This document shows positions 6,075-58,342 of a stretch of DNA of 64,000 nucleotides, in pieces. Where the stretch lies: NCBI GenBank assembly GCA_024345305.1, contig BRON01000004.1, positions 1,550,001 through 1,614,000 on the forward strand. Reading direction: 5' to 3'. Numbering within the stretch: position 1 is the first letter of the stretch; each line of letters starts with the position of its first letter. This stretch comes from Mrakia gelida. Taxonomy: Eukaryota > Basidiomycota > Tremellomycetes > Cystofilobasidiales > Mrakiaceae. A program made the position numbers and the translations under genes. The notes beneath the pieces are model-generated. The model was not told the origin of the DNA. It searched no databases and saw only the letters and a program-made list of their open reading frames with translations.

Positions 6075-9040
6075 CTAGTGATCCAGATCCTCCCAGGCCC
6101 TTCCAACGGTGAGATGCAGATCCTCGGTCTTGACCTGCTTTCCTCCCGAGAAGTATCCGGCGGCGATTTTGGCGTCGACTGGGAAGGAGCGAACGAGGGA
6201 GAAGGGGAGGAGAGTCAGTGTGGGTGAGGCGGGAGAGAGAAGGCGAGACGAGACGAGACGAGGAAGGGAGGGAGGAAAGATTGGGTGGGAAGGGAACGAA
6301 GGGAGCGAAGGAGAAAGAAAGGGAAGACAGCTCAAACTCACTCTCGACCTGGGAATCAGGGGGGATGAGGTAGGCGGGGATGTCGTATCGCTTGAGGATG
6401 GGGATTCCGGAACCGACGATGGCGTCGTACTTCATGTCGGACATGGAGATCATCTGCGAGCGAGCGAAGGAGAGGGACGGGAAGGGTCAGCGCGAGGAAC
6501 GAACGAACGAAGGGAGGCAAAGGGAGGAGGGAGGAAGGACGACTCACGTTGTCGATCTTTGTGATTCCGAGCCAGTGAAGAACGTCGGGCATGAGAGCTT
6601 GGAATCGCATGTCCTTGACTCCGGCCTGGCGAACGAAAAGGAAGGAGGAGGGGGGAGTCAGTTTGAGGTTCGAGACGAGACGCGTCGAAACGAAAACGAA
6701 GGACGATCAACTCACAATCAACTCAGTCGACTTGAAGTACCTATCAGCCGAATCTCCTCCTCGCTTTCGAGAGTTGTAGACGAGGTCTGAAACAGACGAA
6801 AGAAGGAAGAGGAGGGTTCAGTTGGAGGTTCGAGTGAAGAGCAAGAAGCGAAGCAAGACGACGCGACGAAAACTCACACTTAGTGACCTCTCCAAGCGCC
6901 CTTCCCTCCTTCCTGAAGTACACGATCACTCCAACTCCACCTCGCTGAGCACACCTCGCGGCCTCCTCGATTCCGTAGATGAGGTAAGGTCGGCAGGTGC
7001 AGATGTCGGAACCGAACACGTCCGATCCGTTGCATTCGTCGTGAACTCTGTGCGAACGCGAGAGAGGGAGGTTAGTTTCGAAGCGAGCGAGGAGAGCGGA
7101 TGCAGAGAGGGCAAAAGGGAAAGATGGGATGGAGTTCGAGAACTCACCGAACGGTACACTCCTTGGTAGGATCGGACATGAACGCAGGGTTTCCAAAGAT
7201 GTAGACGGTCATTCCGCCGATGGGAGGAAGGAAGATCTCGAGATCTCGTCGGGTGAGAAGTTCAGGGTACATTCCTCCGGTTTCTGCAAGGGTGAGCGAA
7301 GCGAGCGAGAGCGAGCGAACAAGAGAGTCAGATCGAGAGCCTCATAACAAAACGAACCGAACCCCGAAAGAAGACGCGTCTCAAACTCACCCTCGAACAA
7401 ACTCCTCCTCAACAGATCCTCCGAGATGCCGAACCTCTCAGCCATCAAAGGCAAGTTCCAGACGGGCTCCACCGCAGCCTTGGATACGTTGACCTCCACC
7501 CCAGGGTCGATCTCAGGGAAGGCAGGGAGGGGAGCTGAACGTTGAACGATCTTTCCGTCGATGGGGAGGTTTCCAGCTGCGAAGGCGGCGTCGAGCTCGG
7601 ACATCTTGATGTGAGCTTTGGTGACGGAGATGGTGGGTCGAGCGTCGAGACCGGCGTCGATTTCCTGAACGAACGAGGGAAGAGAGAGAGAGTCAGCGAG
7701 AGAGAGAGAGAGAAGACGCGACTCGACGACGAAACCCAAGCTGAGTTCGTTCGTTCGTTTGTGCTCACCTTCTTGAAAGCAGTCTGAACGTAATGTCCCC
7801 AAGGATCGAGGGAGACGATCTTCTTAGGGTCGAACCACGAAGGCTGAGGAGGAAGGTCGAACGGAGGGTGGGTGTTGGTGTAGTCGGGCTTGTGGTTGGG
7901 ATCGAGGGTGTTGAGAGCGATGGCGAGGGCTTTGTAGATGGAGTAGGATCCGGAGTAAGCTCTGCATGGACCAAGCAGAACGAGAGTCAGCGAGAGAAGG
8001 GAGGAATGAGGAGACGAGAAGAGAGGCGAGACGCGTAAACTCACCCGATAGCGTTCCTGACCTTGAGGGACGAAGGATGCCGGGAAGCGACGACGGGACC
8101 TCGAGAAGCGGCATCGGCAGCTCCCCACTTGAGAGGAACAGGCTTGATTCCGACTTGACCAGGGTAGGCTGATTAAAACGAAGACGGAAACAAGTCAGCT
8201 CTCGAGCTCAGCCCACGCGTCGCCTCCCCCCCCCCCTCTCCTCACAAAAAAGGAGCTCGAACTCACTAGTCAAAACAACCCTCTGAGGGTACATGTTCCC
8301 GACGGTCTGCTCTCCATCTGGAACCCTGGTGCTGGGCTTTCCAACGATGGCAGAGACGGGCGAGAGAGGGGTGGAAGCTCCGTTGACGTGTCCGTTGATG
8401 GGTTTGGGAGAGCCGAGAGCGAGGAGAGAAGGGGAACCGAAGTCTGTAGGAGGAGTGGCAGGGAGGAGGACGGAGGGGGAGGTGGTGTTGGTGGCTAGCG
8501 AGGAAAAAGAACAAAGGGAAAGGAAAGGGGAGGGGAGGAGAGAGGGTGAGCTTCGAGAGTTGTGGGGAAGCCCGCCGGAAGGACGAAGAGCTCAATCATC
8601 CCTGGCTCCTTCCATTCCTCCCTCCTTCCCTTCGAGAAGGATCTAGAGATGAGAGAGGGTAGTAGACTCACGATCTACGATGGAGTAGTCCTGCTTCTTG
8701 GACAGCTCGTCGACCTGAGGTGAATCAAAACAAAAGCGAGACGAGGTGAAGCGAGGTCAGGTTCAGCCTTATCTCCTCCTCCCTCCCCCCCTTGCCAGCT
8801 TCTCGTCCCACTTCGCCCTCCCCGCTCCCTCGACTCCCAAACCAGCATGGAAACGAGACTTACCTTAGCCTGAAGAGCCGCGTTGCTTGTGCTGAGTTTC
8901 TTCATCTCCTGTAGGATCTGACTGAGGACTGAGGCTTCGTCTCCGTTGGCGGACGAGAGAAGCTCCTCCGGAGTGAGAGCTCGAAGAGCAAGAGGAGCAG
9001 GCACGGCTGAGGGAGTGGTGGTGTTGCAAGAGGGACACAT
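6075..9040 (-). CDS. URC1: URC1, GTP-cyclohydrolase-II-like uracil catabolism protein
   Basis: About nine exons on the minus strand join in phase. The protein carries the GTP cyclohydrolase II fold: a zinc-site region DECNGSDVFGSDICTCRPYL, then GGVGVIVYFRKEGRALGEV with the Arg/Glu catalytic segment, RKRGGDSADRYFKSTE, and a C-terminal block KIDNMISMSDMKYDAIVGSG followed by KRYDIPAYLIPP. This whole-length architecture with a long N-terminal region matches fungal Urc1 of the URC uracil-degradation pathway rather than RIB1, the riboflavin enzyme. Start: MCPSCNTTT at 9040 lies right after a CTGTATAG acceptor-like sequence, so a further upstream exon or a 5'-UTR intron is possible. The N-terminal 100 residues are low in family signal. 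No other URC gene is adjacent. Confidence 0.85.
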
Positions 9041-25260: not shown

Positions 25261-25461
25261 CGGTCATTGCCCACGTCGACCACGGTGAGTTCCATAGATT
25301 TTGGCCCGTTTTGATCCTACCTTTTTCGTTCGAAGTTGGGGTTTCGAGGAGGTCCTCGACGTTCCCTCGTCGTCTCCGCGTCGCTTCAGCTGTCTCAGGA
25401 CCGTTGACTGATCTCGATCTCGATCTCCCTCCTTTCTGTTCGCTCCCAAAGGGAAGACCAC
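25261..25461 (+). pseudogene. Relic copy of a TypA exon-intron-exon segment
   Basis: About 200 bases nearly identical to 28952-29147 in the TypA/BipA gene. It includes the end of the exon coding VIAHVDHG, the whole following intron, and the start of the exon coding GKTTL. Differences I see: two bases after the donor, one single-base indel, two bases near the CTCTC run, one block of about six bases, and two bases before the acceptor. Because the intron is included, the copy arose from DNA, not from mRNA. Weaker similarity to the next TypA intron may continue to about 25560. It lies between convergent genes, in the same orientation as the source, about 3.7 kb upstream. Confidence 0.85.
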
Positions 25462-25770
25462 TCTGATTCGTGTTCGACCAGCGAGCACGTCGACGTTCGA
25501 GCTCGGATGAGCCTTGAGAAGGAGAAACGAAGCTGACCCACGCGACTTTCCCTCCTGCTTCACTCTTTCCTTTGCTTTTCGACGACTCGAATCAGTTCGT
25601 GGATTCGAGATCGAAAGCCAGCATACTTCCAGAAACTCCCAGGTCGGATGCGAGGGTTCGTGGAGTTTTTCAGGGGGCATTAAGATCTGAAGGAGAAAGA
25701 AGCAAAGAGTCAGCGGAGAGTGAACGAAGGAGAACGAGGGAACAAAGGGCGTACCGTTATTGGGGTGCTA
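25462..25770. other. Convergent intergenic region after the relic
   Basis: Holds a weak continuation of TypA-intron-like sequence (GAAGCTGACCC...CGCGACT near 25530) and then the 3' flank of the F-box/WD40 gene. No supported ORF. Confidence 0.35.
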
Positions 25771-28605: not shown

Positions 28606-31600
28606 ATGGCTTCCTCCCTACTCGCATCGAGATCGATTCTCGCCAGGTCGACTCTTCAGCCCACCCTTCGAGCTTCGTCGGCGAAGCTCGCTCCTTCCTC
28701 CTCCCTCCCTTCCTCCTCCTCCCTCTCCTCCTCTTCCCTCCCTTCCACCTCCTCCCGACGATCCTTCGGCTCTATCTCCTCCATCTCCATCTCTTCCAGG
28801 TCCTCCTCGACCTTGAAGTCCGCTTTCCGTGCGCGAAGCGCCCGAGAGCGTTCTTTCTCGACCTCCCCTTCCCTCCTTGCCTCCATCGTCCCCTCAACTC
28901 CCAAGCTCGACTCGGATGGATTCATCGCTCTCTCGCATATCCGTACCTTAGCGGTCATTGCCCACGTCGACCACGGTGAGCCCCATAGATTTTGGCCCGT
29001 TTTGATCCTACCTTTTTCGTTCGAAGTTTGGGGTTTCGAGGAGGTCCTCGACGTTCCCTCGTCGTCTCCGCGTCGCTTCAGCTCTCTCAAGACCGTTGAC
29101 TGATCTCGATCTTCCTTCTTTCTGTTCGGTTCCAAAGGGAAGACCACCTTGGTCAGTACTCGATGGACGCGTCGTTGTCTGGGCTTTGAAGAGTTCGAGA
29201 AGGATGATCGAAGCTGACCCGACGCGACCTCCCTTTCTTCGTTTCCTCAGGTCGATCAACTCCTCCGACAGTCTGGAACCCTCAAAAAGCTCTCTGATGC
29301 TACCCTCCTCGCTGGATCCATCGCCATCGACGCTGGAACCGATTCAGGATTCGTGACGAGGGCCATGGACAGCAACGATCTCGAGCGAGAGCGAGGAATC
29401 ACCATTCTGTCCAAGTGCACGTCCGTTAACTACAACGAGCACCTCATTAAGTGAGTTCAGTGTCCATATGCTCTCTGAGATGGTCGCCGAAGGTCTGGGA
29501 TGGAAGAGATCCGGACTGGGAACTGATCCGAGCGACGTGCATTGGCTCGAACCTGCAGCATCGTCGACACTCCTGGTCACGCCGATTTCGGAGGAGAGGT
29601 CGAGCGAGTCTTGTCTATGGTCGACGGAGTCCTCCTCGTCGTCGATGCTACTGAGGGACCTTCGACTCAGACCCGTTTCGTCCTCGGAAAGGCTCTCAAG
29701 GCCGGTCTCAAGTGAGTCTCGCGTCTCTTTGTTCGACGCGTCTCTTCCGCGAGCTCAACACTCATCAACACCTCTCCCAAACCCTCTTCTAGGCCCATCG
29801 TCGTCATGAACAAGGCCGATCGATCCACCGCTCGACCTGAACAGGTCGACTCGGACATTCTCGACCTTTTCTGCGCTCTCGGAGCCACGGACGAGCAAAT
29901 GGACTACCCTCTCATCTACGCCTCCGCCAAGCAGGGATGGGCTTCCGTCGACCCTCCAGCCGTCCCTACCGCCGAGCAGGAATCTACCAACGTCCCTCCA
30001 GCAGACGATATGATCGCCCTCTTCGACATGATCCTCAAGGAGGTCCCTTCGCCGGAACGACTGGATCGAAAGAAGCCCTTCTCGATGCTCACCACCCAGA
30101 TCGACTCGGATACCTACGTCGGAACGCTTTACCTCGGACGAGTCGAGAGTGGGTCGATCAAGATTGGAACCAAGCTCGTCTCGTTAGATCCTGAGGGGAA
30201 GAAGGTCGGAGAGGGAAAGGTGACCAAGTTGTTCGGTCGGGTTGGGTTGGACAAGGTGTCGATTGAGAAGGCTGCTGCTGGAGAGATCGTCAGTATCGCC
30301 GGGATCATGGGAGGAGGTGTGAACGTGACGATCGTCGAAGAGCACGCGGATATGAAGCCTCTCCCCGTGAGTTATCTCTCATCTTGGTTGAACTTCACGA
30401 TCTTTGACGCGTCGTGCTTCGACTTCAGCTGACCTCAACCCTCTTCCTCCCCTTCTTACCCTCCAACCCGACCATCAGTCCACTCCCCTCGACCCTCCTA
30501 CCATCTCGATGTTCGTCTCCCCTAACGACTCTCCCTTCGCCGGTAAGGAAGGAAACAAGCTCACCGCCGGAATGATCAAGGAACGTCTCTACAAGGAAGC
30601 CGAAACCAACGTCGCTCTCAAGGTCATCGAGAACCTCGACAGCGGGGAAACCATCGAGATCCGAGGTCGAGGAGTTCTCCATCTCGGTATCCTCCTCGAG
30701 ACCCTCCGACGAGAAGGCTTCGAACTCGCCGTCTCCCCTCCTTCGGCGCTGCTCAAGAAACATCGAACGACCGGGACGGTCTACGAGCCTATCGAGGAGG
30801 TGACGATCAACGTGCCGAGCGAGTACATCGGAGTCGTGACGGAGAAGATGATGAAGAGGAAGGCTGAGATCCTGAGCTACGAGGAGGAGGACGGGAAGGT
30901 CAAGGTGGTGATGGAGGTCCCCGCGAGAGGATTGATCGGATACGTCAGTGGAGAGTTCAACAACGACGTGCATGGACAAGGGTGAGTAAATCATACATCC
31001 CTCTCTGTCTCTCTTCACGTGGGCCCCGTCGCGTTCGAAACTGACTTCGTTTTTCCGTTCGACGCGCGCGTTTCGTTTTCGCAGAACTCTCAACCATCTC
31101 TTCAAAGCCTACGAACCCTTCCGAGGCGACATCGCCACCTCTCGAAAGGGATCTCTGGTCTCGTCCATCAGGGGAGAGGCCTCCTCGTACGCTATCATGC
31201 CCCTCCAGGCTCGAGGAACCATGTTCGTTTCGCCAGGAGACGCCGGTACGTCGTCGTTTTTTTCCCTCCTTCTCTTCTTCGTTCATCTCGACCCGATACT
31301 AAAGCTACCCTTCTCACCTCACTCGCCTACAGTCTACGTCGGTCTCATCGTTGGAGAGTCGTCGAAGGGAGACGAGTTGAACATCAACGTCTGCAAGACC
31401 AAGCAGTTGACGTGAGGCGACGCTCTCCTCCCCTCTTCCTCGTTCTTTCGAGTCGCTGACGCTTTCCCCCCCTTATCTTTGTCCAGGAACTTCCGAGCCG
31501 CCGGAAATGACGACAAGAACTTTGTTGCCCCAGCCAGGAAGATGACTCTGGAGGAGACGATCGCGTACTGTGCTGCCGACGAACTTATCGAGGTCACCCC

Positions 31601-39542: not shown

Positions 39543-40207
39543 GGCTGAGATAAAGGGAGTGAGAAGCAAAGTGCGAGGTGGTGGCAAGGAAGGGAGGTGA
39601 AACGAGGAAAGTCGCTTCAGCTCGAGCTCGTTCCCGGAAAGGCGTGAGTCACCCGTCGGTCGTGTATGTTGAAGAATTGCACGCTTGCGACTATCTTCTG
39701 TTTTCTTATCCATATTTCTACGAGGCTGAGGTCTGCATCTCCTCTCGAGGTCTGCATCTCCTCTCAAACCGGGCAGATCGCTGCGATTCGTTCGCGAAGT
39801 GCGTGTCGCGTTGCGCTTCATCACCTTCTCCGCTCTTTCTTCCGTCGCGCGGCCCTCGCTGGCTTGAAGATTATACCCTCGCAGAAATCGTATCTGAGGA
39901 CATAACGAGTAAGACGAGTTTGCATATCAGGGACTTGGCTAGCCCATCGTGCAACACCTCGTCCCTTTCTGGGTTTTTCCGTTTCGTTGGTTTCCTCTTC
40001 GGTCGCAGGGATGACCCCTAGTAGTTAGCATCGCAGGTTCAAATCCCTCCTCTAGTTTATGGACATTAGCTTTTTGGATCGCTCCTCAAGGGCGGCTTGA
40101 CTTCGCTGGGCGAGTTTCGCTCACGACTGAACCAGCCATCTCGGCGCGTCGAGTTTCGATCGGCGAGCTTTCCTTCTTCCTAGCGAGAACGAGGACAAGG
40201 GACGAGC
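39543..40207. other. Intergenic; two-copy 19-bp tandem repeat
   Basis: Upstream region of the Gln-rich F-box gene and 3' flank of the next minus gene. It holds a perfect two-copy tandem repeat (39728-39765) and a tRNA B-box-like GGTTCAAATCC at 40036 that has no matching stem. No supported ORF. Confidence 0.4.
39728..39765. repeat. 19-bp tandem duplication, two copies
   Basis: GAGGTCTGCATCTCCTCTC occurs twice without a spacer, at 39728-39746 and 39747-39765. It looks like a small recent slippage duplication about 190 bases upstream of the start at 39542. Confidence 0.9.
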
Positions 40208-41711
40208 TCATCGACATGGGATTCGTTTAAATCTACTCAGATGTTGTATAGAGGTAAACTGAGAAAAAGAGGAGAGAAGGTCAGCGAGGTTGTGAGTCGA
40301 GGCAAGAAGCCAGTGGAGTGCAGCTTACAAAATCGAGAACGCCGAGCCCTGCGACCGACGAGCTGAGCGAGGTGAAGGTGGACTCTTGATATCGACGACT
40401 GGGAGGTGTCTCCGTGACCTGAAAGGGAGAAAGGAAGAAGGATGGTACAGAGTCAGCGGCGATCTACAAAAAGTCGAGCGGCGGGTCGCGAGCCAGACTC
40501 ACGAGAGAGCGAGGCGTGTGATCCACGAGGAACTCAACAGTTGACGGCGTCGAACAGCAGTCGATGAGGTCTGAGAAGGAGACAGAGCGAGAAAACGTCA
40601 GCACGGTCGAGGAGAGGCAAACGGACGAGACCTCACGCAGTCGACGCGTCGGACAACTCACAACCCAATCTCAAAGCTGACAAGAGCCTGCATCCGAGCA
40701 CGGTCATCCTCCGAGGCGACCCGTTCTACCAGCAACTTGTCAACCCGTGTTCGCAAGTAACGACTCTGCTCCTCCGTAGGCAAGCAAACAACGACCTTCT
40801 TCACCCTCGCCAACCAGAGCGACGACCGCGCCGTCCAGTATGCGAGATAGGTCCCAATCGGACGTCCTGTGCGGTTTGACCCAGCCGTACGATGACCTCT
40901 TTGCTTCCCTTTCGCAAGCAACGCCAGTCCAAGATCTCCGTAGCCTCCAAGTCTCTAAACTCGAGGAGGGAGAGGTTGTTCCAGCGCGCGTGCAAGATGT
41001 CGACGGAGGGAATGCGAGATTTGGAGAGGGGATGATGATCTGAGGTGAGGTATACGCGTCGAGGGTCGAGGTGAGGAGTAAGGTACATCCAGGCCTTGTG
41101 GGTCAGGATCCGGGTCCGGGTAGGGCTGAGGAAGCGAAGGGTGAGGGAGTCGATCTCGACGATGCCGAAGGGGTTCGGTGAACGATCCCGAGAGAAGGCA
41201 GTGATGGACGTTGGGTTGTCGGTGGGAGAAGGAGTGAAGGTGAGGGACCGTATCCGACGGAGGGAGAGGTAGGGCTCGGGTTGAGGTTGATGGGAGGAGT
41301 CCTACAATGGAAAGGGGAAGGAGGGACGGAAAGGAGGTGAGCTTCGACCTCGAAGGTTTCCGTGCTTCGAACGCAGAACAACGATCCTCCAGAGCTGGAG
41401 AAGTTACTCACTCGAGGACAAAACAGTCTGGCCATGACATTGAATCCGGTGATGATGATCTCGTCGTAAAGGAGAGGGGAGGAGAGCTCGAGGAACTCGA
41501 GGGAGAGGGAGGAGGTCACAGCCAGCGTCGAGGGATCGCAGAAGCGAAGGATGTATTTCTTGAGCTCGGTAGGTAGAAGAGGGAGGGGTAGAGTGGTAGA
41601 GCTGGGGATCGAGGTGGAAGGGGAAGGATGGGATGGTCCGTTGGAAGGAGAGGAGGATGAGAAGGGAGGGAGGGTCGAGGTCGAGGAGGGAGGAGCGATG
41701 ATAGCGGCCAT
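40208..41711 (-). CDS. F-box-like protein; 3' half of model uncertain (possible frame break)
   Basis: Start at 41711 (MAAIIAPPSSTS). A Ser/Pro-rich leader precedes LPLPLLPTELKKYILRFCDP, STLAVTSSLSLEFLELSSPLLYDEI: the usual F-box-like opening in basidiomycetes. After an intron (about 41412-41303) the protein continues RIRSLTFTPSPTDNPTSITAF and SVDILHARWNNLSLLEFRDLE to VIVRLGQTAQDVRLG. There the frame appears to change, near 40850, to TYLAYWTARSSLWLARVKKVVV and PTEEQSRYLRTRVDKLL. One missing base would restore the frame. Downstream splice choices are ambiguous (donor GTCAGC at about 40673 or GTGAGT at about 40662), so the end at 40208 is one of several options. Function beyond F-box likeness is unknown. 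Confidence 0.5.
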
Positions 41712-53333: not shown

Positions 53334-56300
53334 ATGAGCAAGATCAAAGACGAGATTCACGACCTGGGGAGTACTCTGAAGAGTAAGATGAAGATCTTGG
53401 GACCTGTGAGTGTTCACGACTTGGGGAGAACGGCGAGATGGAGCCGGCTCCTTCGCTCGAGCTCACCTCCTCCTTCTTCGTCCAGGATCACCTTCGTATG
53501 TTCGGCAAGCAGATACGAACGACACTCAATCCCGCCCATCGCCATGACGAAGAAAATGAGCGTTAGTAGAACACTCAGATGTATACTTATCGAGCAAGGC
53601 TCACGTACATATATATATCAGGGAGGAAGAGGGCCTGGGAGGGCCTTCACCCCTCTTTCCCCGCTGAAAACTGATCCTTCCTCCTTCTTCTGCTTGCTAT
53701 TCAGACGAAATCGACCGACAGAAACAAGCTATCAGAGACAGTCATCGATTCAACTCGTTCGCTCCCGAAACGGCCAACTCTATCGTCAGGAGTCACGTCG
53801 ACGGGGTTCGTTCGCTCGAGCTCACCTCGACTTCTCCTTCTTCCCCTTTCTGACCTTCGTTCGTTCTTCTGGTCCACAGCACGACTTCTTCTGGGCCGTC
53901 TCCATCATGCTTGAAGAAGCCAAGACCTCCATCATGATTCTCGATTGGTGTACGTAGAGAGCTGGAGGAGGGAAGGAGGCGACGGACCGAGCTCACCTTT
54001 TCCTTCGTTTCCCTTCATCTTCTTTACCTAAACAGGGTTGTCGCCTGAGCTCTATCTCCGACGACCTCCTGCCCAGTATCCCGAGTACAGACTGGATCGT
54101 CTGTTGAAGAAGAAGGCCGAGGAGGGAGTCAAGATCTAGCGCGTCCCTTTCCTTCCTTCCGCGTCGGCCGCCTCAACGTTTCTGACCTCGCTCTCTTCGC
54201 CTTTTCCAGCATCATCGTATACAAGGAGGTCACCCAAACCATGTCGATGAGCTCCTCTCACACCAAGCACTACCTCGAGGACCTTCACGAGAACAGCGCG
54301 TCTCTCTCCATCTGCCTCTCCTCGTCTTGAACCCGTCTGACCTTTGTCTGTTCTTTCTGCAGTCGCCGTTCAACGTCACCCCGATCACATGGGAGGAGAG
54401 GTCACCTTGTTCTGGAGTCATCACGAGAAGATGACCGTCGTCGTGAGTCGGACTCGTTCGTTCTTCAGAAACGAACCCGAACTGACGTTTTTTTTTTTTT
54501 TCCTTTCTGTAGGATTCGACGCGAGCTACTGTCGGAGGACTTGATTTGTGCTTTGGACGTTGGGATTTACACGACCAGTGAGTCACTTTTTTTGACCTCT
54601 TGGTTCGACTTGCGGAACGACGAGGAGCCGTCACTCGAGACGCGTCGACTCGGAGTCGAGCTGATCGTTCTCCGTTCCTTTCGCTTTCTCAGTCCTCTCG
54701 CCGACGTTCATCCCACCAAGTTCGATCAGACCCTCTTCCCCGGTCAAGACTTCAACAACGCGCGAGTGCTCGACTTCCAGAACGTGGATCACTTCGTCTC
54801 AAAGTGAGCGAGAGACCGAGGAGCGAGAGAACGTGAACGAAGCTGATCCCGTCGCGTCGCATTCTTTTCCCCTCAGCGCTGTCGACGAATCGCAAGTTTC
54901 GAGGATGCCTTGGTGCGTAACAATCCTTGTTCAATTCGAGGTCCTTGCGACGCCTTGCTGCGTCGAGTCCTTTCGCGGGCTGAGACTGTCTTTTTTCAGG
55001 CACGACACGTCGATGACCATCATCGGACCTGCCGTCGTCGATCTCACTCAGCACTTCGTCGAGAGATGGAACTTCGTCAAGCACGACAAGTACAAGCACG
55101 ATCACCGATACGAGTGAGTTCTTCCGCGATTCTGGGTCGACCCTCTCTTTCTCGTCGATTCGAAAGTTCTGACCGTCCTTCCCTGGCTTCCTCGTTCCCC
55201 TGTCCTTTCTCTTGATCTTCAGCTGGCTCGGACTTCCCTCACCCTACCAATCTCCCGTCGACGCGTTCGAGTCGAGGCGTGGCAGTCTCGACGAGGAGCA
55301 GGCTGAGACGCGACGAGCTGAGCGACGACGAGAACATCCTCACCTTCAAGAATGGATGGATCGCGGGAGATCCTACGCCCACCCCTACCACTTCCATCCG
55401 TCGACTGCTCCTCGTGCCGAGGAGGACGTCCCCAAGGGAAACATGCGAGTTCAGGTCGTTCGAAGCTCTGGGGATTGGAGTCACGGAATTCTTACCGGTG
55501 AGTCCAGTTCGGACGTTTCGCGAAGCTCGATCTCGCTCGACTAACTTTCTCTCGCGTTCATCCTCGCTTCTTTCAAGAAAACTCGATTCAGCGTGCTTAC
55601 ATTCAGATGATCATGGAGGCCAATCACTTCATCTAGTGAGTCTCGAGCGATCTACTGGAGCGTGATGGAGCTGAAGAGGCAGGAGGAACGGACTCGTCGG
55701 CGCGTCTGACCCTCTTTACCTTTCGACTCGACTCCACAGCATCGAGAATCAGTTCTTCAGTGAGTCACTAGCTCCTCCCTGCCAGGATATACCCTCGCTT
55801 CGAATCTACTCGAACCCCTTCGGATGGAAACGCGCGGTCTAACAAAAACTTCGTTGGTTTTTCTTGCATCGTTCTCCTCGACAGTCACCAACACCGAGGA
55901 CGGCAACGGTCCCGTCGAGAACATGATCGGAAAGGCTCTCGTCGCTCGAATCTTGTCTGCTGCTCGAGCTGGAAAGAAGTTCAAGGTCCGTCTTCGTCTC
56001 GACCCTCCCTTTGACGACGCGACGCGACCTGACCTCGACTCTCCTTTCTTCGAACAGGTCATCATCCTTATCCCCGAGATCCCGGCGTTCCCAGGTCCGT
56101 CTTCGTCTCGACCCTCCCTTTGACGACGCGACGCGACCTGACCTCGACTCTGCTTTCTTCGAACAGGAGATCTATCTGCCGAGGGAGGTCTGAAGGCCAT
56201 CATGGGAGCTCAGTATCGATCCATCAACCGAGGAGGAAAGAGCATCATGGAGCAGATCGCGAAGGAAGGCTACGATCCCTCGGAATACATTCGGTGGTAC

Positions 56301-58342
56301 AACCTTCGATCCTACGACCGAATCAACGCTCCTGAGTCGTTCCTCAAGGAGATGGAGAAGCGAGTGAGTCTTGCGTCCTTGCTCATCGTGCCCCAGCTCC
56401 TGGACGACCTCGGACGTCGACTGACTTTCCTCTTCTACTCTTCGGCACTGCTTCTCTCCTAGTCTGGTGTTTCCTACCACGAGGCCCAAGTTGCTCTCGC
56501 TCGACAATGGGTGGGAACGTCAGTCGAACTTCCATCCCCGCCTTTATCGCTCGATCTTCGCCTTTCGTCCGCTGACCCGTCTTCGTCTTGGTTTCGTATC
56601 GCTTCCCTCTTCTTGCAGTGATAGCGTCGGAGACGAGAAGGCAGACACCGTCAACATCACCATCCCCGTCGACGACAAGGGTCAACTCAACCAGATGGAG
56701 GCTACCGACGGAGGAAAGGCGATTCGAAGTGTCAAGATGCCCAAGACGACGGAGGAGGCGAAGCAGATCGTCGAGAAGTGAGCGATCCTTCTTCTTGGTC
56801 TCGCAACGAAACCCGAAATTCGTATTGACGCATCGCGTACTTTCTTCCAGGTTCGAGAACGCTGCGACTCGTCCGGACGAGGAGGTGAGTTCGCGTTCGC
56901 TTCCCTTCGTCTTCCTTTCCATCTCACTGACTTTTTCTCCCTTCTTTCGTTTCTCTCCAGGTCGCTGATAACGTTGGACAACACGCTCTCAACGACAAGG
57001 CTGGACTACTGGAGGAGAAGTGGTTGGGAACCGAGCAGGAGGAGAGGGATTGCTACGTCTCGGAGCTCTGCTGTGAGTCGTTCGACGTCCTTCCGCTCGA
57101 AGCCAATTACTCTCACTGAACCCTCCTTTCTCTGACACAGACATCCACTCGAAGCTTATGATCGTCGACGACCGAAGAGCGATCTGTGGTTCTTCCAGTT
57201 CGTCTTTTCGCTCGCCTCTTCCCTCGTCGGTCGTCGTTCGTCGGTCGTCGCTCTCACTTCGCTTACCCCTCTTCTTCTTTCCCTCTAGATCTCAACGATC
57301 GATCCATGTGCGGAGATCATGATTCCGAGATCGCGATGGTCGTCGAGGATCTGGATATGGTCGAGACTACGAGTGAGCAAGAACCTTCCTCGTCTCGCTT
57401 CCCTCCCCGACTTCTTGACTGATCGACAACTTTCTCTGCTTTCAGTGGACGGAAAGGAGTACATGGCGTCCAAGTTCGCCAAGCAATGGAGACATCAGCT
57501 CATGAAGGAACATCTCGGTCTCATGGTGTGAGTCTTCGCTCTCGTCGTGGAAGGAACGCGACGCGTCTTCGAGCTGACCTCTCTTCTTTCCCTTTCCTCT
57601 TCGACAGCCCTCAGGGAACTCACCCCGAAGGAGAGCCTCACCCTACTGTGAGATTCAGCTCAGTTCTCGTGCTCTCTTCGAGTCTGGTCGATACTGAATC
57701 GTTCTCCTACTTTTCCCTCTTCAGCCCGCGATGCATCCTTCTCCTCACGAGCACACCGACTTCCTCAGCTCAGCGGAGGACCAGCTCGTTAGCGATCCTC
57801 TGAGCGACGACTTCCTCGAGCTCTGGACTGGACGAGCCAAGACGAACCGAGAGATCTTCTCGAAAGGTTCGTCCGTGTCCCTCGCGTGTCCACGTCGATT
57901 CTCGTGTTGACTTTCGCTTCCTCTCCTCCCTCCCAGTGTTCCAAACCGTTCCTCACGACAGCGTTACCACCTGGAAGAAGTACTCCGTGAGTCCTCGCCC
58001 CTGCGAATCGCTCGGTGCTGCGTTTCGAACTCGAAACTGACGAGACTCGATTCCTCAGGACTACATCCCTCAAGGAATTAAGACCGGGCACGTCGCAGCG
58101 AAGGACATGTCGCTCGCTCAAGTCAAGGAAACGCTCGCTGAGGTCCACGGTCACCTGGTCGAGATGCCCCTTCAGTTCCTCATCGACGAGAAGAACCTCG
58201 AGGGTGAGTTCGAACGCGCTCGGATCTCGCGCACCCATCTCCTCGTCGTCGTTGCTGACGGACCTCCTCCTCTCTGCTCTTTTGCAAAGCGTTCGGCGAC
58301 CTGGCATCCGTCAACTCGGTGACGCTTCCCCTCTACCTCTAG
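53334..58342 (+). CDS. Phospholipase D with two HKD motifs
   Basis: About 22 exons join in phase to a protein of roughly 800-850 residues. It hydrolyses phosphatidylcholine to phosphatidic acid and choline. HKD motif 1 is HEKMTVVD followed by VGGLDLCFGRWDLHD; motif 2 is HSKLMIVDD followed by ICGSSNLNDRSMCGDHDSE. Other family blocks: FFWAVSIMLEEAKTSIMILDWWLSPE split over exons, IYIENQFFITN, GGLKAIMGAQYRSINRGGKS. The N-terminus (MSKIKDEIHDLGSTLKSKM) goes almost straight to the catalytic part: there is no PX or PH domain as in Spo14/PLD1. Two adjacent 72-nt introns (55986-56057 and 56095-56166) are identical but for one base. The intron near 53560-53700 holds a short AT repeat. The last exon ends at 58342. 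Confidence 0.9.
55986..56057 (+). repeat. Intron copy 1 of an identical intron pair (phospholipase D)
   Basis: 72-nt intron between AAG and GTCATC, phase 0. It starts GTCCGTCTTCG, has GACGACGCGACGCG and the branch CTGAC, and ends TTCGAACAG. It differs from the intron at 56095-56166 at one position only (CTCTCC versus CTCTGC). Confidence 0.95.
56095..56166 (+). repeat. Intron copy 2 of an identical intron pair (phospholipase D)
   Basis: 72-nt intron after CCCAG and before GAGATC, phase 1, within the codon for Gly of PAFPGDL. The exon between the copies (56058-56094, 37 nt, VIILIPEIPAFP) is present once, so this is not a simple tandem duplication. Shared flanking bases are just AG before and G after, the usual proto-splice site. 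Confidence 0.95.

Follow-up and report, generated by a model that had tools for sequence, protein, structure and literature searches.

Two near-identical introns in a phospholipase D gene

The 64,000-nucleotide (nt) stretch of Mrakia gelida DNA analysed here (the window; contig BRON01000004.1, positions 1,550,001 to 1,614,000 of the forward strand) contains a phospholipase D gene in which two adjacent introns, the 15th and the 16th, are almost the same sequence. We refer to them as introns A and B, and the coordinates of the gene and of the features discussed are collected in Table 1; positions without a prefix are those of the window. The gene model was built by hand and checked by translation. 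Its product shows 71% identity over 99% of its length to phospholipase D1 of Phaffia rhodozyma, Phaffia being a member of the Cystofilobasidiales, and carries the Pfam domains PLDc and PLDc_2.

We confirmed that A and B are equally long, differ at one base and lie in different phases, as the original prediction had claimed, and that the exon between them is not repeated. Beyond the introns the two copies share nothing but a preceding AG and a following G: the left flanks read ...TTCAAG (A) and ...TCCCAG (B), and the right flanks GTCATC... (A) and GAGATC... (B). The identity of the two introns is 0.986, versus 0.70 for the runner-up among the 378 intron pairs of the gene, and the A/B repeat gave a BLAST E value of ~1e-31 when a 264-kb sample (C4:1480001-1744000, 0.76% of the genome) was compared with itself. 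The likeness is not due to chance. Within the gene the donor GTCCGT is unique to A and B; it is of the GNNNGT form found in 24 of the 28 donors, and therefore is not abnormal. Only three of the 28 introns, A and B among them, have AG|G flanks, indicating that the target of B is not simply the usual intron site of this gene, and the 2,616 coding bases contain CAGG 6 times and AGG 57 times.

Table 1. Features of the phospholipase D locus of Mrakia gelida (positions in the window)
Feature	Position	Strand	Remarks
Phospholipase D gene	53334..58342	+	29 exons, 28 introns, 871 amino acids (aa); hand-built model, translation-checked
Intron A (intron 15)	55986..56057	+	72 nt, phase 0, donor GTCCGT, acceptor ACAG; probable source
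Intron B (intron 16)	56095..56166	+	72 nt, phase 1, 71/72 identical to A, sits in CAG|G; probable new copy
Exon between A and B	56058..56094	+	37 nt, VIILIPEIPAFP plus one base; unrepeated; conserved loop in homologues
75-nt repeat AG-intron-G	copy 1, 55984..56058; copy 2, 56093-56167	+	
Putative branch site CTGAC of intron A	56029..56033	+	B counterpart at 56138-56142; pattern match, function inferred
Sole A/B difference, intron position 58	C at 56043, G at 56152	+	within pyrimidine-rich stretch before acceptor
Phase-2 intron in codon 553 (after aa 552)	56519..56618	+	absent from environmental relative P0126

The protein supports the removal of both introns. An uninterrupted 871-aa frame was obtained on translation with A and B out, whereas with both retained the frame stays open across A and meets a stop within B. 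Furthermore, the loop KFKVIILIPEIPAFPGD agrees with the homologues once A and B are removed, and the loop VIILIPEIPAFPGD is free of insertions and deletions in 118 of the 120 full-length homologues among the matches listed (of 3,226 matches). The two homologues that break the loop, P0021 (Tremella) and P0023 (Cryptotrichosporon), are annotated Tremellomycete models and look like mispredicted annotation. Thus, an open frame requires the removal of B, and conservation of the loop that of A as well, which bears out the earlier claim that the protein reads smoothly only with both removed and supports the reading of B as a copied intron.

Besides, the length of intron A is divisible by three and holds no in-frame stop, so that, if retained, it would lengthen the protein by 24 in-frame residues; retention of B would stop the frame. 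For the protein of this gene to remain conserved, two other introns (54139-54209 and 54296-54362) have to be interpreted as GC-AG introns with the donor GCGCGT.

Intron B as a probable copy of intron A

We consider it very probable that B is a recent, seamless copy of A, placed in the same gene at a CAG|G site that follows A after 37 coding bases; this confidence concerns the copying event from A to B and no particular route. Intron A would have been duplicated without exon sequence, and, because its own donor, branch site and acceptor would have been carried along, B would have been splicable at once and the protein unchanged. The original prediction had argued that tandem duplication would have copied exon sequence too; indeed, plain tandem duplication is excluded, since the 37-nt exon is unrepeated and only AG and G are common outside the introns.

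An assembly or library artefact, with the second copy absent from the organism, would also yield two near-identical introns; we regard it as very unlikely, because the exact placement between AG and G, the frame kept after splicing and the one-base difference would not be expected of misassembly.

The direction of copying was read from relatives, represented by exon-level open reading frames (ORFs) called on environmental fungal contigs. For site A (KFK|V, phase 0), 126 ORFs were compared (the best 120 of 252 matches and 6 from another search, not independent species); they were sorted by regular expression, apart from P0165, assigned by eye to the read-through class, and P0188 and P0202, assigned by eye to the entering class. 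Sixteen read through an insert, 34 enter at the site and 54 are contiguous across it; a further 17 begin there or beyond, and 5 fall short of it. All 16 inserts have V (GTN) first and Q or K (CAG/AAG) last, exactly there. The 34 entering ORFs come to V from unrelated sequence, and in 33 of them the residue preceding V is Q or K, which is what a phase-0 acceptor would produce. Among the read-throughs, P0121 matches Meredithblackwellia (Pucciniomycotina) best, though narrowly (146 versus 135 bits); for the remaining 15 the best match is a mushroom-forming fungus or an unnamed environmental sequence. At site B, no intron was found in any of the 121 covering ORFs, none of them known from Cystofilobasidiales; 116 continue to the next conserved block, and five were checked by eye.

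The position of A is thus occupied in distant Basidiomycota and that of B in none of the 121 ORFs, which by parsimony suggests the direction from A to B; judged from these sequences, the site of A is probably the more ancient one, and B the derived copy. As to which intron is new, a point that the original prediction had left to the relatives, occupancy in 16 of 126 ORFs against 0 of 121 thus favors B as the newer, with the reservation that the set holds no Cystofilobasidiales ORF over B. A distant phospholipase D paralogue, on C3 of this genome, has no interruption at either site, and no related loci were found in prokaryote and viral contig collections.

Several observations weigh against this reading. 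P0122-P0126, which include the ORFs nearest to this species (P0122 and P0124-P0126), all start downstream of B, and with neither ORF nor DNA from Cystofilobasidiales over site B, relatives may have an intron there. At site A, the contiguous ORFs (54 of 126) include P0143 and P0189, the two Tremellomycete-like ones that cover it, and therefore the presence of A by descent is argued from parsimony and is not proven. In P0189, whose closest match is Cutaneotrichosporon, an intron lies between F and P, in phase 0 and 4 nt upstream of B, and the models P0021 and P0023 break next to the B site; an older intron near B is accordingly conceivable. We infer the splicing of A and B, moreover, from the sequence. 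Finally, neighboring intron candidates in the 264-kb sample were no more alike (91 length-matched pairs) than other pairs within 1.5 kb (278 pairs; p 0.33), so that general copying of neighbors is not apparent in this sample. These candidates, false ones included, were taken from consensus patterns and not from annotation; neighboring ones were more alike than pairs more than 10 kb apart (4,364 pairs; p 0.0003).

If both introns were old, they could have been homogenised by gene conversion or local recombination, B deriving from an older nearby intron. The intron that some Tremellomycetes seemingly have 4 nt upstream of B (P0189, with the broken models P0021 and P0023) fits such a history; however, it is offset from B by those 4 nt and has another phase, gene conversion ordinarily depends on homologous flanks, of which A and B have just AG and G, and an intron at B itself is found in 0 of 121 ORFs. 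We therefore consider homogenisation unlikely. The idea that B is an older intron that slid or was replaced is disfavored by the same mismatch in position (4 nt) and phase (0 versus 1). P0173 and P0193 have an intron 6 nt downstream of B (phases derived by hand from the residues).

Copy number in the genome

The original prediction had also raised an introner-like element, and with it the prospect of further copies of the 72-mer. Searches over the whole genome (34.86 Mb, 25 contigs) met the A and B places only at high identity: the AG-intron-G 75-mer had no third place in the genome, and intron parts of 27 and 28 nt, with at most 3 mismatches, matched only the A/B sites genome-wide (controls, 0). 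The 22-nt part from the 5' end of the intron had ten extra places in the genome, each at 3 mismatches (control, 1). As to sensitivity, this search recovered a 93% copy of another sequence and did not link a 76% pair, so that copies of A/B near 75% identity would escape it.

An introner family at high identity was accordingly rejected, no further copies having been found. That A and B belong to a family spreading through the genome would accord with their near identity in differing phases and with a moderate hairpin (fold z of -2.0 for A, -1.7 for B and -1.5 with flanks; 9 of 200 shuffles folded as well, for A and for B each). Nevertheless, with two copies found in 34.86 Mb, both in the phospholipase D gene, with the 27- and 28-nt parts confined to them and with all ten extra 22-nt places at 3 mismatches, we hold this explanation to be extremely improbable. 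Of the intron transposition proposed originally, the seamless copying of one intron from its neighbor is supported; the introner-like element is not, and reverse splicing would leave the same scar as copying of DNA.

Possible routes of copying

The scar in the sequence is identical for an RNA and a DNA route, and either would prefer AG|G. We tentatively and slightly favor local copying at the DNA level, by two-step template switching or templated break repair with microhomologies of AGG on the left and CAGG on the right. A polymerase on the exon would slip back 109 bases at AGG, copy A and return at CAGG, and selection would weed out all but precise copies, the loop being nearly intolerant of insertions and deletions. 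The 109-base offset with its AGG and CAGG microhomologies, the 14 introns before and 12 after the pair that are intact, and the scarcity in this gene of AG|G flanks (3 of 28 introns) and of CAGG (6 per 2,616 coding bases) all speak for such a route; our slight lean comes from the closeness of the two sites, the microhomologies and the neighboring introns being intact.

It is also possible, and here too we can be no more than tentative, that excised A, still held by the spliceosome, was inserted by reverse splicing at the CAG|G, either in the transcript it came from or in single-stranded DNA of the transcription bubble, a DNA copy then being recombined into the gene. This would account for exact splice borders at both ends on the same strand of the same gene with no exon copied, the target AG|G resembles the source junction, and near-identical intron pairs within one gene in Oikopleura have been interpreted likewise, as recounted in PMC3879977. 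Selection after DNA copying, however, would leave equal precision; the target is 37 nt away from A in spite of the 57 AGG sites in the coding sequence; and the tract of recombination with complementary DNA would have to be limited to ~480 bases (55885-56363), because the flanking introns are retained.

Age of the probable copy and intron turnover nearby

One difference in 72 positions corresponds to 1.4% divergence (95% range, 0.04-7.5%). The rate of 2e-9 is called commonly applied by Sharpton et al. (PMC2395259); if it is taken per year and both copies are allowed to change, our own arithmetic gives an age of ~3.5 million years (range, ~0.1-19). The single difference sets only loose bounds on the recency seen in the original prediction, and that recency presumes that no gene conversion between the copies took place afterwards, which would feign youth.

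The environmental relative P0126, which differs at 12 per 72 residues from aa 535 on, lacks the intron after aa 552 of the Mrakia gelida gene and has an intron in codon 506 that is missing in that gene; the intron after aa 534 is common to both. Such differences indicate gains or losses of introns among relatives. No second copy of the intron after aa 552 was found in the genome.

In the GTP cyclohydrolase II-like gene on the minus strand of the window, the adjacent introns 6626-6715 and 6787-6877 are 76% alike over the full length and differ in phase. This pair lies above the 99.9% quantile (0.7125) and just under the maximum (0.763) of 6,000 random candidate pairs, and may possibly be an older intron copy; it was chosen post hoc from the 23 BLAST pairs described below.

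These observations bring up the wider idea that Cystofilobasidiales are still gaining introns by single copying into nearby sites, A/B being a fresh product. The codon-506 intron of P0126, the lack in P0126 of the intron after aa 552 and the GTP cyclohydrolase II-like pair speak for it, and we counted against it that neighboring candidates in the 264-kb sample do not exceed other close-lying candidates in likeness. On balance we regard this wider idea as unlikely.

Other repeats in the sample

The first self-comparison of the 264 kb (16 rows) contained no other repeat above 93.5% identity. A looser self-comparison gave 23 same-strand pairs within 6 kb, of which A/B, a GTPase piece, the GTP cyclohydrolase pair and a tandem repeat at L032 were inspected closely. 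The GTPase piece, consisting of an exon, an intron and the start of an exon of an EF-Tu-type GTPase gene, occurs at 25261-25477 and 28952-29163 with 93% identity over 202 bases, the extra copy lying 3.7 kb upstream; it is a duplication at the DNA level, exon included, and seemingly a fragment. At L032:1364-1692 a segment of 162 bp is duplicated in tandem (93% alike), and a weaker repeat adjoins it. Besides, a dispersed repeat at 39921-41568 has relatives of 78-91% identity at C4:1708514-1710176, 1668090-1668347, 1732039-1732306 and 1620710-1620891, and is perhaps a transposon family.

Comparison with known systems

The origin of introns is still disputed, and many recently gained introns are described as lacking an identified source (PMC3443670 and PMC3629103); at the phospholipase D locus, source, copy and target are all legible in 181 bases. 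Cystofilobasidiales have the highest number of introns per gene among the fungi compared in one study (PMC5103461), the only paper on this order and intron gain that our literature search, weak on subscription papers, brought up. Strains and relatives from this order could date the event and show whether copying of single introns built the intron density.

The pair A/B is a clean case of a known but rare kind, the near-identical intron pair in one gene. In Oikopleura dioica, four near-identical pairs were reported among ~75,000 introns, each pair in one gene, and reverse splicing was suggested (as recounted in PMC3879977). As there, we read two near-identical introns of one gene as original and copy; the Mrakia gelida pair differs in being fungal and adjacent, with 37 coding bases between the introns, and in that the source side could be inferred from relatives. 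Within the Tremellomycetes, gene CNN00420 of Cryptococcus neoformans likewise holds near-identical introns, which are polymorphic and recent (Sharpton et al. 2008, PMC2395259). Those introns are identical and lie in repeats of ~107 nt together with exon ends, whereas no exon sequence is repeated with A and B.

Two other fungal systems share part of this pattern. Fungal introner-like elements are also copied spliceosomal introns (PMC4457414), but for A/B two copies were found, in one gene. The tandem-duplication introns of fission yeast (PMC3629103) have in common with A/B local duplication and AGG-type sites; there, however, the new introns resemble nearby exons, whereas in Mrakia gelida a whole intron was, very probably, copied.
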